58,072 nt of DNA, from contig CACFFJ010000005.1 in NCBI GenBank assembly GCA_902565645.1, positions 1 to 58,072 of the forward strand, in the 5' to 3' direction. Below, piece by piece: positions 4,784 to 26,204 of the stretch. The number at the start of each line of letters is the position of its first letter. Position 1 is the stretch's first letter. The DNA is from an uncultured Candidatus Actinomarina sp. (GTDB taxonomy: Bacteria > Actinomycetota > Acidimicrobiia > Actinomarinales > Actinomarinaceae). The position numbers were made by a program, and so were the translations under genes. The notes beneath the pieces are model-generated. The model had not been told where the DNA came from, made no database searches, and worked only from the letters and a program-made list of their open reading frames with translations.

Positions 4784-5671
4784 TTAATTCCCTTTTTTTA
4801 TTACAAGAGATTCAAAGTCTTCTTTAGTTTTAATAAATACTCTTGAACCTGAACCTGGTTCCATTGTTACACCATAAAGAACATCTCCAGCATGCATAGT
4901 TTGTTGCTGATGTGTAACAATTAAAAACTGAGCATCATCTTTTAAATAATTTAACAAATTTATCATTCTATGTAAATTTGCATCATCTAATGCAGCTTCA
5001 ACTTCATCCAAAATATAAAATGGACTTGGAAAAGATTTGAAAATAGCAAATAGAAATGCAATGGCAGCCAAAGATCTTTCACCACCAGAAAGTAAACTTA
5101 GTTTTTTAACTTTTTTTCCATGAGGTTGAGCAGAAATTTCGATACCTGTTTCAAGTAAATTTTCTTTATCGGTTAATTCTAATTTTCCATTACCTCCTGG
5201 AAATAATTTCTCAAATATTTCTGCAAAGTTCACTGAAATTGAATTAAATGAAGAATCAATTCTAAATTTAATTTCATTTTCAATTTCATCAATATGTAAC
5301 TTTAATTCTTTTTTTGATTCATTTAAATCAGCAATTGATTTATTTATTTCTTCATACCTATTATTTAAATTTTCATAATCTTCTTTAGCTAAATAATTCA
5401 CAACACCTATAGACTCAATCAATTTTTCAGATTTATCAATATCTTTAATTATCTGCTCTTCTGTTATTTCTTCAGTGTATAACTCATCTATTTCCTCAAT
5501 TGATAAGCCGTGAATATTTGTAAGATTTGAATAATAAGTAGATACTTCCTTAGAATATTCTGAATCTTTTATCAATAAATTACTTTTTTTATCTTTCAAT
5601 ACATGCAATTTATCTATAGATTGATCTATCTCTTCTTCAATAAGATTAATTTTTTTCGTTACTAGAACCAT
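4784..5671 (-). CDS. smc: Chromosome segregation protein SMC, C-terminal part (coiled coil plus C-terminal ABC head)
   Basis: LSLLSGGERSLAAIAFLFAIF signature, FYILDEVEAALDDANLHR Walker B/D-loop, LIVTHQQQTMHAGDVLYGVTMEPGSGSR; different frame from upstream SMC N-terminal ORF. Confidence 0.9.
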   Translation of the reverse strand: MVLVTKKINLIEEEIDQSIDKLHVLKDKKSNLLIKDSEYSKEVSTYYSNLTNIHGLSIEEIDELYTEEITEEQIIKDIDKSEKLIESIGVVNYLAKEDYENLNNRYEEINKSIADLNESKKELKLHIDEIENEIKFRIDSSFNSISVNFAEIFEKLFPGGNGKLELTDKENLLETGIEISAQPHGKKVKKLSLLSGGERSLAAIAFLFAIFKSFPSPFYILDEVEAALDDANLHRMINLLNYLKDDAQFLIVTHQQQTMHAGDVLYGVTMEPGSGSRVFIKTKEDFESLVIKKGN

Positions 5672-7436
5672 ATTTATTGTCGAAATATTCAGATTGTTTA
5701 CTTAAGACGATAGATGTATCCTTTAATATTTTAAATAACTCTGTTCCTTTTATTGATATCTCGTTTAATTCATCTATTTGGTTATTAAAATCTAGTAACG
5801 ACTTTTCCTTAATTAAATCACCTATTTCTAAATTTTCTTTATTTAAATATTTTATTTTTTCAGTTAATGAAATAACTTGATTAGTCAAAATAGATATTTC
5901 ATTCTCTATTAAATTTATGTTTTTATCTAATTTATTTCTTTGTAATTTTAATTCTTCCTTAAATTCATCTTGATTATTTATTGAATTTAATTGATTTTTT
6001 TTAGTATTTAGTAACAATTCTTTTGAATGTATTTTTTTATCTATCTCTTTATTGCCTTCAGTTAATGTTGAAACTTCCCTCTCGAAGATTGAAAATACTT
6101 TTTCCTTTATTAATATGAATTCCTCTTGTTCAATATTTAGTTCAGTTAATTTATTGTGATGACTGTTTATATAGTTACTAGAAATTCTTTTATCTTCTGT
6201 CCACAAATTTAATTTTTGATTATTAATTTTCAAAGTTTGTTCTGTTTCATTTAAAAATTCTTTTAGATACTTTATTTCATTATTAATTACTGCTTCATTT
6301 ATTTCCATATTTGATGATTGCTTTTGTGTAATATCTAATAACTCTCTATTTAAATTTTCTAAATATATTGTTTTTTCTTTAACTTCATTTTTCTTTGAAA
6401 TTAGTTGACTAGACATTGAAGAAATTGAATTTGTATTATCTAATATCTTTTTTTTGTTAACAGAAATTTCATTTTTAACTTTAATATTCGACCTTTCAAT
6501 ATTATCAAGTCTTTCATTTGCTATCTGAACTATATTTTTAATTTTTTCTGCATTATTTAAAACTTTATTTGAAATATCCTTAAATACTGAACCAAGTGAT
6601 ATGCTTTCACCCAAATTATTATTTAATTTTCTTTTAGAATTTTTCTGATCATCAATATAATTTGTAATCTCTTCTAGTTCATTTTTAATTTTGTTTAAGT
6701 CATTACTTAATGTTTTATTTTTATTTTTAAATTCATGATATTTAAATATATTAAGTTGAATTTTTAAATTTTTTAATTCCTTTACTGCTTTTTCATGTTC
6801 TATGGCTTGTTCAGCTTGTTTTTTAAGTGGATCTAATTGTTTTTTTATTTCTCTTAAAACGTCTTTGGCTCTTTTTATTTCTTTTTCTCCAGATTCAATC
6901 CTTTTTAAAGCTTTATCTTTTTTTGATTTAAATGGAAGAATTCCTGCAGCTTCTTCAATTGTTATGCGATGATCTTCTGGTTTAGAATTTAAAATTTCAG
7001 CAATTTGTCCTTGTGAAATTATAGTGTGTTGCTGTTTTCCTATACCTACATCACCCAAAAATTCTTGTACATCGAGAAGTCGGCAATTCAATCCATTCAT
7101 AAAATAATCTGATTGTCCATCTCTATATAATTTTCTACCAATAGAGATCTCATTTGTTCCATTAAATTTTTCAGGATTTACTTCAAAATTTAAATTTACT
7201 TCAGCGTATCCTTTTTGTGTTAATTTATCTGTCCCTGCAAAAATAACATCTTCCATTTTGTTTGTTCTGAGTGTTGCTGGACTTTGTGTTCCTAAAACCC
7301 AAGAAATTGCATCAACAACATTTGATTTACCTGAACCATTTGGGCCAACAACAACATTTACTTTATTTGATAATTGAATCGATGTATTTTCTGAAAATGA
7401 CTTAAAGCCATTAATATTAACTGATTTTAAATGCAT
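5646..7436 (-). CDS. smc: Chromosome segregation protein SMC, N-terminal part (N-terminal ABC head plus coiled coil); ends at A7 tract and overlaps the C-terminal ORF
   Basis: MHLKSVNINGFKSFSENTSIQL...VVVGPNGSGKSNVVDAISWVLGTQSP Walker A; long coiled coil; no recognisable hinge domain. Confidence 0.9.
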   Translation of the reverse strand: MHLKSVNINGFKSFSENTSIQLSNKVNVVVGPNGSGKSNVVDAISWVLGTQSPATLRTNKMEDVIFAGTDKLTQKGYAEVNLNFEVNPEKFNGTNEISIGRKLYRDGQSDYFMNGLNCRLLDVQEFLGDVGIGKQQHTIISQGQIAEILNSKPEDHRITIEEAAGILPFKSKKDKALKRIESGEKEIKRAKDVLREIKKQLDPLKKQAEQAIEHEKAVKELKNLKIQLNIFKYHEFKNKNKTLSNDLNKIKNELEEITNYIDDQKNSKRKLNNNLGESISLGSVFKDISNKVLNNAEKIKNIVQIANERLDNIERSNIKVKNEISVNKKKILDNTNSISSMSSQLISKKNEVKEKTIYLENLNRELLDITQKQSSNMEINEAVINNEIKYLKEFLNETEQTLKINNQKLNLWTEDKRISSNYINSHHNKLTELNIEQEEFILIKEKVFSIFEREVSTLTEGNKEIDKKIHSKELLLNTKKNQLNSINNQDEFKEELKLQRNKLDKNINLIENEISILTNQVISLTEKIKYLNKENLEIGDLIKEKSLLDFNNQIDELNEISIKGTELFKILKDTSIVLSKQSEYFDNKYGSSNEKN

Positions 7437-22324: not shown

Positions 22325-23296
22325 ATGATTAAAAATTTATCACCTTCAAGGGCTTCACAGTTTAAAACATGTCCAAAACAATATAAATTTGCAAATGTTG
22401 ACAAAATTATTGAACCAACAAATGAAGTTCAAGCAAAAGGGACTACAGTTCATCAAGCTCTTGAAGATCTATATGAGTTACCAAAAGAAGAAAGAAGTTC
22501 CGAGAATTTATACAATTTATTTAGAAATGCTTGGACAAAAGTAAGAGGTAACGATGAACATGTAGATCTATTTGACACAATTGAAGAAGAGAAAGAATGG
22601 GGTTTAGATGCATTAAATTTGTTAGCAAATTATTTAACTTTAGAAAATCCAAAGGAAATAGAACCTATGGAAAAAGAGAGATGGGTGCGAGGTTCTATAG
22701 ACGATTTAAATCTTAGAGGAATTTTAGACAGAATGGATAGAGACAAGGATGGAAACTTAATAATTATCGATTATAAATCAGGTAAAGCCCCATCAGCTAA
22801 ATATAAAGAACCAAGATTCTTTGCACTTAAGTTATATGCATTACTAATTAAAGATGAACTTGGTGAAATGCCTAAAGAACTTAAATTAATTTATTTACAG
22901 AATTCAACAATCCATACTTTACAAATCGATGAAGATATTTTAAATAAAGCAAAAGAAGAAATATTGGATATCTGGAACAATATTAAAAATGCTTATGAAA
23001 ATAATCAGTTCCCAGCAACAAAAAATACACTTTGTGATTGGTGTTACTATAAACCAATTTGCCCGGAATTCAATGATTCAGCGCCTGATACTGATGATCT
23101 ACAAAATATAAATATTGAGATAGAGGATTTAGAAAAGAATATAGAAGCAGTAACAATGTTTGAAAATCCTGATGATATCCCAGATGAAAGTCCTATTAAA
23201 AAAATTGATATGGAGTCTACTAATGAGCAACTTAAAAATTTAAAAGACAAAAAACAATCAATAATAAATGAAATTGAGAAAATTTTAAGGAAATAA
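22325..23296 (+). CDS. RecB-family PD-(D/E)XK nuclease with probable 4-Cys Fe-S motif (AddB/Cas4-like)
   Basis: SPSRASQFKTCPKQYKFA, GTTVHQALEDLY, GILDRMDRDKDGNLIIIDYKSG, CDWCYYKPICPEF. Confidence 0.85.
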   Translation: MIKNLSPSRASQFKTCPKQYKFANVDKIIEPTNEVQAKGTTVHQALEDLYELPKEERSSENLYNLFRNAWTKVRGNDEHVDLFDTIEEEKEWGLDALNLLANYLTLENPKEIEPMEKERWVRGSIDDLNLRGILDRMDRDKDGNLIIIDYKSGKAPSAKYKEPRFFALKLYALLIKDELGEMPKELKLIYLQNSTIHTLQIDEDILNKAKEEILDIWNNIKNAYENNQFPATKNTLCDWCYYKPICPEFNDSAPDTDDLQNINIEIEDLEKNIEAVTMFENPDDIPDESPIKKIDMESTNEQLKNLKDKKQSIINEIEKILRK

Positions 23297-24547
23297 TCCT
23301 CTAGTTAACTTAGCTGCTGCTACTCGTTTTATGCCTTTAATAAGAGAAGCAGTCCTTAGATCACATTTATTTTTTTCAGCTATAACCCAAATTTCTTCAA
23401 AGGAGCTAGTTAAAACATCAATCAATTTTTCATAGAGCTCCTTTTCCTTCCAGAGATAATTTTGTGTGTTTTGTACCCATTCAAAATAACTACCTGTAAC
23501 ACCACCAGCATTAGCAAGAATATCCGGAATAATTAAGATATCGTTATCTCTTAAAATTTTGTCAGCATTTAATGTTGTCGGAGAGTTTGCACCTTCGACT
23601 ATAACCCTGGCTTTTATTTTTTGTGCATTACTTGAAGTTATCACACCACCAACAGCTGCTGGAATAAGTACATCACATTCTAATTCTAGAATTTCTGAAT
23701 CAAGAGGATCACCTCCTGGAAAACCATCTACCGTGTTCTCTTTAGCTATATGCTTAAATAATTCAGGAATGTTTAAACCTTTTTCGTTATACACGCCACC
23801 TTTTAGATCATTAACAGCTATGACTTTTGCTCCCTCTTCATAAGATGCTAAAGCAGCATATCTTCCGACATTTCCGAAGCCTTGAACGACTACTTTAGAA
23901 TCTGAATATTTTTTGTTATATTTATCCATTGCAGCTTTTGCAATAGCTACAGCTCCTCTGCCTGTAGCCTCTCTTCTAGTTATTGAGCCTCCTAAAGAAG
24001 CTGGTTTTCCTGTAACAATGCCTGGTTGTGGTGAACCTACAAAGTTGCTATATGTATCCATAATCCATGCCATTGTTTGTTCGTCAGTTCCTAAATCAGG
24101 AGCTGGAATATCTTTATCTACACCTATTACAGGTAATAATTCTGCGGTAAACCTTCTTGTAACTCTTTGCTTTTCAGCTCGCGATAGAGGTCTTGGATCG
24201 ATAGCTACCCCACCTTTTGCTCCTCCATAAGGTAAACCTACAATTGCAGACTTCCATGACATCAAAATTGCGAGAGCTGTAACTTCTCCAAGATTCACAT
24301 CCGGAGCATACCTAATTCCACCTTTCGTTGGTCCCATTGATAGAACATGCTGTACCCTATAACCGATAACAGTTTCTACTTCTTCATACTCATCTCTTCT
24401 AAATGGAAAAGTAACAGTTAAAGCTCTTTGTGGTAATTTCAATCTTTCTTTAATATTTGGATCAAGATTAATAAATTCAGCTACTTCATCATATTGACGA
24501 ATTACTTCATTGTACATATGTGAAGCGAAGATATCCCCATTTGTCAT
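23285..24547 (-). CDS. gdhA: Glutamate dehydrogenase
   Basis: GPTKGGIRYAPDVNLGEVTALAILMSWKSAIVGLPYGGAKGGV, APDLGTDEQTMAWIMDTYS, VVQGFGNVGRYAA, ILANAGGVTGSYFEWVQN. Confidence 0.94.
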   Translation of the reverse strand: MTNGDIFASHMYNEVIRQYDEVAEFINLDPNIKERLKLPQRALTVTFPFRRDEYEEVETVIGYRVQHVLSMGPTKGGIRYAPDVNLGEVTALAILMSWKSAIVGLPYGGAKGGVAIDPRPLSRAEKQRVTRRFTAELLPVIGVDKDIPAPDLGTDEQTMAWIMDTYSNFVGSPQPGIVTGKPASLGGSITRREATGRGAVAIAKAAMDKYNKKYSDSKVVVQGFGNVGRYAALASYEEGAKVIAVNDLKGGVYNEKGLNIPELFKHIAKENTVDGFPGGDPLDSEILELECDVLIPAAVGGVITSSNAQKIKARVIVEGANSPTTLNADKILRDNDILIIPDILANAGGVTGSYFEWVQNTQNYLWKEKELYEKLIDVLTSSFEEIWVIAEKNKCDLRTASLIKGIKRVAAAKLTRGLFP

Positions 24548-24632: not shown

Positions 24633-24749
24633 ATGAAATACAAAAATATAGAAGATATCCTAAAAGATAGCGGCCTTGATGCTGTTGTTATATGTTATAA
24701 ACATAACGACCAATGCAGTTGTCATGAAAGCTACAAAGAAGCAGCTTAA
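24633..24749 (+). CDS. Possible 38-aa Cys/His-containing microprotein
   Basis: ATG ORF MKYKNIEDILKDSGLDAVVICYKHNDQCSCHESYKEAA, 21 nt upstream of the next ORF on the same strand; not in the ORF track because of length. Confidence 0.45.
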   Translation: MKYKNIEDILKDSGLDAVVICYKHNDQCSCHESYKEAA

Positions 24750-24763
24750 ATTTAGGAGAAAAT

Positions 24764-25327
24764 ATGAACAATAAAATCGAAGATGTTCTTGATCTAACAA
24801 GAGAGATCTCAATACAGGATAATGAAGAGATTGATTTTTCAATAACTCCATTTGGTGAAAAATTATTATCTACTGAAGATATTGAATTTCTTTGGGTTGC
24901 AAGAAATGCATCTAGTTCAGTAAAGTCAGCATCTTCAAATATTAAAACTTTTAATGACGAAAAAATTGCTAATAATGTTAATGAAAATGGATCAGTTAGG
25001 TTGGGAGATGAAGTTTTTGTGTATAGCAAATCATACAACTGGAAAGTACAAGAGTTAAGAAATTTTATTAAATGGGTGATAGAGAAATCAAGTGACAATG
25101 AGGAGCTACTTAATTCTTTGTTAGCTATTATAGGTCCTACTTTTGTACCAAAATTAAAAGGACTTGATGCTGTTTCAGCTTCTAGAAATTTGAATCCAGA
25201 AGTTATTAGAGATACTTTCTTATTTAAAGAGTGGAAGGATAAAGCAGATTTAAAAACAATAAATACAAATAACAAATCGGCTCCAAAATGGGCTAAAGAT
25301 TTAGGTCATAAAGAAAGGAAGAAATGA
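24764..25327 (+). CDS. Hypothetical protein, co-oriented with Rad52-like gene
   Basis: ATG preceded by TTTAGGAGAAAAT (strong RBS); 4-nt overlap with next gene; no family recognised. Confidence 0.75.
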   Translation: MNNKIEDVLDLTREISIQDNEEIDFSITPFGEKLLSTEDIEFLWVARNASSSVKSASSNIKTFNDEKIANNVNENGSVRLGDEVFVYSKSYNWKVQELRNFIKWVIEKSSDNEELLNSLLAIIGPTFVPKLKGLDAVSASRNLNPEVIRDTFLFKEWKDKADLKTINTNNKSAPKWAKDLGHKERKK

Positions 25328-25752
25328 ATCAATTATACGAACTATCAAGACAATTTCCCGATGAATGGGTTAAAAAAGCTCCTAAAGGAAAGTTTGGAAA
25401 TTATATCCCTCATTCTGTAATTACTCAGAGATTGCTTGAGGTATGCGGTCCATATACTTGGGAAGTTAAAGAATTAATCAGACAAGAAAATGATGGAAAA
25501 GTTGTTGGATGTTTTGGAAAACTAACTGTAGAAATTGATCAAAAATTAGTAACTGTAACATCCATTGGCGATGTAGAACACGACCAAGGAAGTGACGGAA
25601 CAAATGCTAAACATGCTGAATCTGATGCATTTAAAAGATGCGCTATGAAAATAGGTTTAGGTTTACATCTTTGGGCTGGTGAAGAATACTATTTAGATAA
25701 GAAATTAAATGATGATAAAAGTAAGAAGAATCTAAAACTTAAATCAGCCTAA
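25324..25752 (+). CDS. Rad52-like single-strand annealing protein
   Basis: RLLEVCGPYTWEVKELIR...GKLTVEIDQKLVTVTSIGDVEH...NAKHAESDAFKRCAMKIGLGLHLWAGEEYY resembles Rad52/Rad22 core. Confidence 0.75.
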   Translation: MNQLYELSRQFPDEWVKKAPKGKFGNYIPHSVITQRLLEVCGPYTWEVKELIRQENDGKVVGCFGKLTVEIDQKLVTVTSIGDVEHDQGSDGTNAKHAESDAFKRCAMKIGLGLHLWAGEEYYLDKKLNDDKSKKNLKLKSA

Positions 25753-26204
25753 TTTAATAATTTTCCATTTTTTGATTCTAATAAAATTGTTACAGGGCCA
25801 TCATTTATTAATTCAACTTTCATAAATGCCCCAAACTCACCCTCTTTAACATCCACTCTCCCACTGAATTTTTCAACTACAATTTTTAAGAGTTCTTTTG
25901 CGCTATCTGGGTCTTCTGATTTGATAAAGGAAGGTCTATTTCCCCTTGAAAGATCAGCTAAAAGTGTAAATTGGCTGACTAATAGAATAGAACCATCAAC
26001 ATCAACTATAGATTTATTCATTTTGCCTTCTTCATCAGAAAATATTCTTAAATTTAAAATTTTTTCAGTTAAAACACCTACATCTTCAATAGTGTCTTCT
26101 TTCTCTACACCCCATAAAAGAAGTAATCCATTATTTATTGAAGATATTTCCTTTTCACTTACTTTTACAGAAGATGATTCAACTCTTTGTATTACTACTT
26201 TCAT
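25749..26204 (-). CDS. dtd: D-aminoacyl-tRNA deacylase
   Basis: MKVVIQRVESSSVKV, LLVSQFTLLADLSRGNRPSF, GEFGAFMKVELINDGPVTILLES. Confidence 0.95.
   Translation of the reverse strand: MKVVIQRVESSSVKVSEKEISSINNGLLLLWGVEKEDTIEDVGVLTEKILNLRIFSDEEGKMNKSIVDVDGSILLVSQFTLLADLSRGNRPSFIKSEDPDSAKELLKIVVEKFSGRVDVKEGEFGAFMKVELINDGPVTILLESKNGKLLN

Follow-up and report, generated by a model that had tools for sequence, protein, structure and literature searches.

Annealing of single strands is the default activity of Rad52-family proteins. Among described members, those closest to the protein discussed here are the Rad52/Erf-like proteins of phages (PHROGs 3290 and 1097, for example gp63 of mycobacteriophage Marvin), whose profiles match it over nearly its whole length; identity to the proteins of 28 mycobacteriophages is about 28–30%. 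Yeast Mgm101 is the best solved match to its predicted fold (TM 0.57), although it is mitochondrial and shares about 16% identity. We know of no partner like the one described below for either Mgm101 or DdrA of Deinococcus radiodurans. DdrA, compared here by its description, is a chromosomal Rad52 homologue that serves the cell's own repair, so that a chromosomally encoded Rad52 protein has a bacterial precedent (PMC515370). Deinococcus keeps RecO, however (PMC7200156), and none was found in Candidatus Actinomarina.

Two further systems resemble the locus in proposed role. RecO, working with RecR, anneals SSB-coated strands and loads RecA (PMC8066028), although the two have no homology to the proteins described here and neither was found in the genus. 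Lambda Orf (NinB) is a phage accessory to the annealing protein Red beta and can replace RecFOR (PMC8066028, PMC4118853). Because some bacteria recombine without known loaders, Rocha et al. (2005) concluded that presynaptic mechanisms probably exist that are yet to be discovered (PMC1193525). Actinomarina appears to be an example, and two small genes offer one concrete candidate. Unlike the genes of those phage Rad52/Erf-like proteins, the Actinomarina rad52 gene lies in a chromosomal core operon free of phage neighbours, paired with a partner whose family we did not find in GenBank phages, whether searched with the host version or with the versions from phage groups A and B.

The locus and its neighbours

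The window, by which we mean the whole 58,072-nucleotide stretch analysed, comes from the tiny marine bacterium Candidatus Actinomarina and carries three small genes (Table 1). A reading of the sequence alone had placed co-oriented ORFs of 38, 187 and 142 aa between gdhA and dtd, and their coordinates and strand are as it gave them. The ribosome-binding site (taggag) that it saw before the partner gene is there, as is the 4-nt overlap with rad52 (ATGA). Downstream, rad52 and dtd converge, with stops overlapping by 4 nt (25749–25752).

Table 1. Positions in the window of the three-gene locus and its neighbours
Feature	Positions	Strand	Remarks
PD-(D/E)XK nuclease, context	22325..23296	+	Pfam PDDEXK_1 2.3e-34; Cas4-like matches
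gdhA (glutamate dehydrogenase), flank	23285..24547	-	divergent from trio; kept at Actinomarina loci
38-aa Cys/His microprotein gene	24633..24749	+	first of trio; motif C-x2-H-x-D-x-C-x-CH
187-aa partner gene	24764..25327	+	putative undescribed protein family common to Actinomarina and marine phages
142-aa Rad52-family single-strand annealing protein gene (rad52), predicted	25324..25752	+	
dtd (D-aminoacyl-tRNA deacylase), flank	25749..26204	-	Pfam Tyr_Deacylase 3e-53; kept at Actinomarina loci

The same reading had noted an absence of phage structural genes around the trio, and this was borne out: by Pfam scan, the neighbours inspected (the PD-(D/E)XK nuclease, gdhA, dtd and a PNPOx-family gene) are housekeeping genes, with no phage gene among them. 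Housekeeping flanks recur at every host locus compared, whereas the genuinely viral copies sit among phage genes. No defence genes adjoin the trio at host loci. The PD-(D/E)XK nuclease on the far side of gdhA is a possible candidate for an end-processing nuclease and is in position at most loci long enough to reach it. At one locus (L047, genome G023) it was not found beside gdhA, and a different nuclease lies nearby on the opposite strand in a 588-codon frame. Promoter and terminator scans of the window gave chance-level results only, and an Rfam scan returned three tRNAs and nothing else.

A Rad52-family protein, a partner and a microprotein

The proposal that the 142-aa product is a Rad52-like annealing protein held up in profile and fold searches alike. 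It scores 28.1 bits against Pfam Rad52_Rad22 (PF04098; cut-off 20.3) over residues 6–120 and matches PHROGs annealing families at 1.4e-14 and 4.9e-10. A sequence profile alone found no match in the PDB; a moderately confident AlphaFold2 model (pLDDT 73) has as its best Foldseek matches Mgm101 (1.2e-5) and human RAD52 (2.2e-5), with the core fold matching Mgm101/RAD52 structures at E values of 1e-5 to 4e-4 and a TM of about 0.5. Pfam, PHROGs and the predicted fold thus assign the protein to the Rad52 family, and family and fold together suggest that it anneals strands. Residues S100, D101, K104 and R105 of a basic helix, S-D-x-x-K-R, are conserved from hosts to distant phages; we take this to be the counterpart of the DNA-binding helix of RAD52. 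The protein is short and has no clear additional C-terminal domain.

The partner matches no family over threshold in Pfam, NCBIfam or PHROGs, and by these searches appears to represent an undescribed family that is also present in marine phages. No NCBIfam model, including those for RecO and RecR (TIGR00613 and TIGR00615), matched either the partner or Rad52. The structural model of the partner is weak (pLDDT 66), and neither solved structures nor a PDB fold search with this model gave a credible lead to function. Homology to lambda Orf was likewise not seen, in that no PHROGs or Pfam family matched and the weak model recovered no PDB fold. The sequence-only reading had offered a single-stranded-DNA-binding subunit as one role for the partner; we reject SSB as its identity, as no SSB profile matches it and its phage operon holds a separate SSB-like gene. 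The gene overlap, the common phage operon and the joint conservation described below point to a dedicated role beside Rad52, and the two proteins may well be in physical contact.

The microprotein is 38 codons long at all 38 loci examined, with C21, H24, D26, C28, C30 and H31 invariant. It probably binds metal and probably serves as a small regulator or subunit. Searches of viral contigs for its relatives returned pattern matches, none of them confirmed.

Conservation across Candidatus Actinomarina

The trio is syntenic at about 38 Actinomarina loci, where the order nuclease, gdhA, microprotein, partner, rad52, dtd and PNPOx is kept along with the gene overlap. Of 35 genus genomes, 33 have Rad52, against none of 24 genomes from elsewhere in the class; the partner occurs in 39 of 42 genus genomes, including all eight that are at least 90% complete. 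The genomes without a match are 60–63% complete or, in one case (G028), have a locus that runs off the end of a contig. Among 297 genomes sampled from the phylum, the partner was found in its own genome only, and Rad52 of this type in its own genome and three others, as distant, split matches. The Rad52/partner pair is therefore core in the genus. Of the two findings that the sequence-only reading had named as refuting it, the lack of a Rad52 fold and a cassette limited to one genome, neither occurred. All three genes are under strong purifying selection: dN/dS in within-clade pairs is far below 1, at 0.008–0.07 for Rad52, about 0.05–0.18 for the partner and 0.08–0.22 for the microprotein (pairs with usable dS), values that are rough because many dS estimates by the Nei–Gojobori method are near saturation.

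A contig labelled Nitrospinaceae UBA3496 (L079, 1–3648) also carries an Actinomarina-type locus with gdhA, the trio and dtd. It is probably mis-binned, and serves here as an outgroup.

Phage counterparts and probable exchange of the partner

Relatives of the partner occur in 28 IMG/VR viral contigs, in 16 of which the neighbouring gene is a Rad52 gene that overlaps or abuts it. The phage operon consists of an exonuclease (phrog_284, 9e-58), an 85-aa protein, the partner, Rad52 and a DUF669/SSB-like protein. This pairing, in front of an SSB-like gene, together with the core status of the pair in the genus, lends weight to the earlier suggestions of a functional pair and of kinship with phages. 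A second phage group carries the partner apart from any Rad52 gene, with a distant Rad52 elsewhere in one contig. Two contigs of this group have WhiB-like genes, which indicate actinobacterial hosts.

The two genes appear to have different histories. In the Rad52 tree, host proteins form one group (SH-aLRT 86) beside small phage Rad52 proteins; in the partner tree, host partners are not one clade (AU p=0.035). The clade 2 host partners (173 aa) are 63% identical to those of phage group B and 38% identical to those of clade 1 hosts, whereas Rad52 is 80% identical between clades 1 and 2, and the flanking genes are hardly more diverged between the clades than within clade 1. The outgroup-like L079 has a partner nearer to that of clade 1 (48%). 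For one half of the genus, then, the partner falls among those of phages, in contrast to Rad52 and the flanks, which track descent. As judged from these comparisons, a single transfer between phage and host would explain the clade 2 partner, and the direction from phage to host seems likelier. A less likely alternative is that the partner evolved fast within clade 2 and phages then captured it.

Missing recombination helpers

The sequence-only reading missed that RecFOR and the helicase-nucleases appear to be absent from these same genomes. Of 42 genus genomes, 39 retain RecA, whereas RecO was found in none; outside the genus, RecO was found in 98 of 103 class genomes (17 genus members having been removed from that count). 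RecR was also found in none of the 42; this is the weakest of the absences, because the RecR model missed Bacillus subtilis among the controls. The RecF model gave nothing over its cut-off in the genus, only sub-threshold matches to other ATPases. Matches of about 880 aa, the strongest to that model, were first assigned to SbcC and proved to be SMC in a Pfam scan. Each genus genome has a single full-length helicase with a UvrD_C domain, of about 715 aa; AdnAB, AddA and RecB would be longer, and the genus therefore appears to have lost AdnAB, AddAB and RecBCD.

We also searched the most complete genus genome read (G064; 1.10 Mb, 93% complete) with E. coli queries. These recovered RecA, RecG, SSB, DnaA, DnaN, DnaX and RNase III, and found no RecR, RecF, RecO, RuvA, RuvC, DprA, SbcD, RecC or RecD; queries for RuvB, SbcC and RecN gave just weak matches to other ATPases. 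Gene order in this genome runs dnaA, dnaN, a 95-aa gene, gyrB and gyrA, with recF missing between dnaN and gyrB. As a control, identical queries recovered RuvABC, RecO, RecN and RecA in the covered 1.2 of 2.2 Mb of an Acidimicrobiia relative, a half in which RecR was not found. Holliday junction handling thus also looks reduced in G064. Recombination is active in the order, to judge by its reported recombination signal, which ranks among the highest in bacteria (PMC7771536).

Proposed role and alternatives

Our preferred reading, in which we place roughly even confidence, is that a domesticated, phage-derived Rad52/partner pair provides an annealing protein and probably a RecA mediator that replaces RecFOR. 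The trio would be a recombination module taken from phages and now core in Candidatus Actinomarina; the domestication proposed earlier agrees with the single chromosomal locus at which the pair is kept across the genus. Rad52 would bind SSB-coated single-stranded DNA and anneal complementary strands, and the partner, as its dedicated accessory factor, would help it to act on SSB-coated DNA or to pass DNA to RecA. Together they would fill the presynaptic step carried out elsewhere by RecFOR and by RecBCD, AddAB or AdnAB. The argument for RecA loading consists of the missing loaders and the strong recombination signal (PMC7771536). The loss of RecFOR is seen together with the Rad52 pair in a single lineage only, and thus amounts to one event, not to a correlation. 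RecO went unmatched in five further genomes of the class, and the three of these that were searched for Rad52 (G051, G052 and G056) lack it as well, so RecO can be missing with no Rad52 substitute. Recombination may simply have been trimmed in general, since the absences extend to RuvABC, RecN and DprA.

The most economical rival is that the pair anneals single strands independently of RecA in gap and break repair, much as in Deinococcus, and never loads RecA, which would work with no dedicated mediator. The default activity of the family, the shortness of the protein with no clear extra C-terminal domain, and the separate retention of RecA all fit this reading, which we hold to be a real if somewhat improbable possibility. 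Bacteria that recombine while lacking both presynaptic systems have been listed before (PMC1193525). Against it, RecA would be left with no known loader despite frequent homologous recombination in population data (PMC7771536).

A stronger version of the preferred reading holds that in this abundant marine lineage the pair has taken over RecA loading and annealing completely from RecFOR and the helicase-nuclease pathways, and that phages of the lineage swap partner genes with the host and carry a partner of their own to use the host Rad52; we consider this doubtful.

Decidedly unlikely, in our judgement, is a part in phage–host conflict, in which the pair of the host would exploit or withstand recombination by phages, and these would supply a partner of their own to steer host Rad52. 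The high identity of clade 2 host partners to those of phage group B, and the hosts' being split in the partner tree while united in the Rad52 tree, speak for it. So do three 78–85 kb contigs of the second phage group that have the partner and no Rad52; in the one scanned by family, of 85 kb, Pfam matches for 70 of its proteins include an exonuclease and an SSB and no annealing family. These phage contigs may be incomplete, however, and the transfer may have run in either direction. The core position, the housekeeping flanks, the strong purifying selection and the lack of defence neighbours also count against conflict.

A role as an aid to natural transformation, raised in the sequence-only reading, is very improbable. 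Annealing proteins can in general integrate single strands, but in G064 neither a DprA homologue nor a ComEC motif was found (ComEC was sought by motif only). The idea of a prophage remnant of recent date, or of ORFs that arose by chance, can effectively be dismissed: although the closest kin beyond the genus are viral, presence throughout the genus at a single locus under low dN/dS contradicts this explanation.

What is new here is the coincidence of a Rad52 pair with RecFOR loss, the partner family itself, and its probable exchange with phages; a limited literature search found no published report of these. If the preferred reading is true, a housekeeping step of a free-living bacterium has passed to a viral annealing system. 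The work also names a new accessory family common to marine phages and their hosts.

Other observations

In one phage group B contig (L089, 7216–10962), several consecutive genes next to the partner are DNA methyltransferase-like, and another contig of that group is rich in DNA methyltransferases. A contaminated genome (G013, at C30 and C36) encodes longer Rad52 proteins, in frames of 197 and 296 aa and 40–44% identical, probably on phage contigs. The SMC gene of the window (4784–7436, minus strand) is split between two overlapping ORFs of 295 and 596 aa, in contrast to a single ORF of about 881 aa in relatives; the sequence points to a frameshift, either real or introduced by sequencing.
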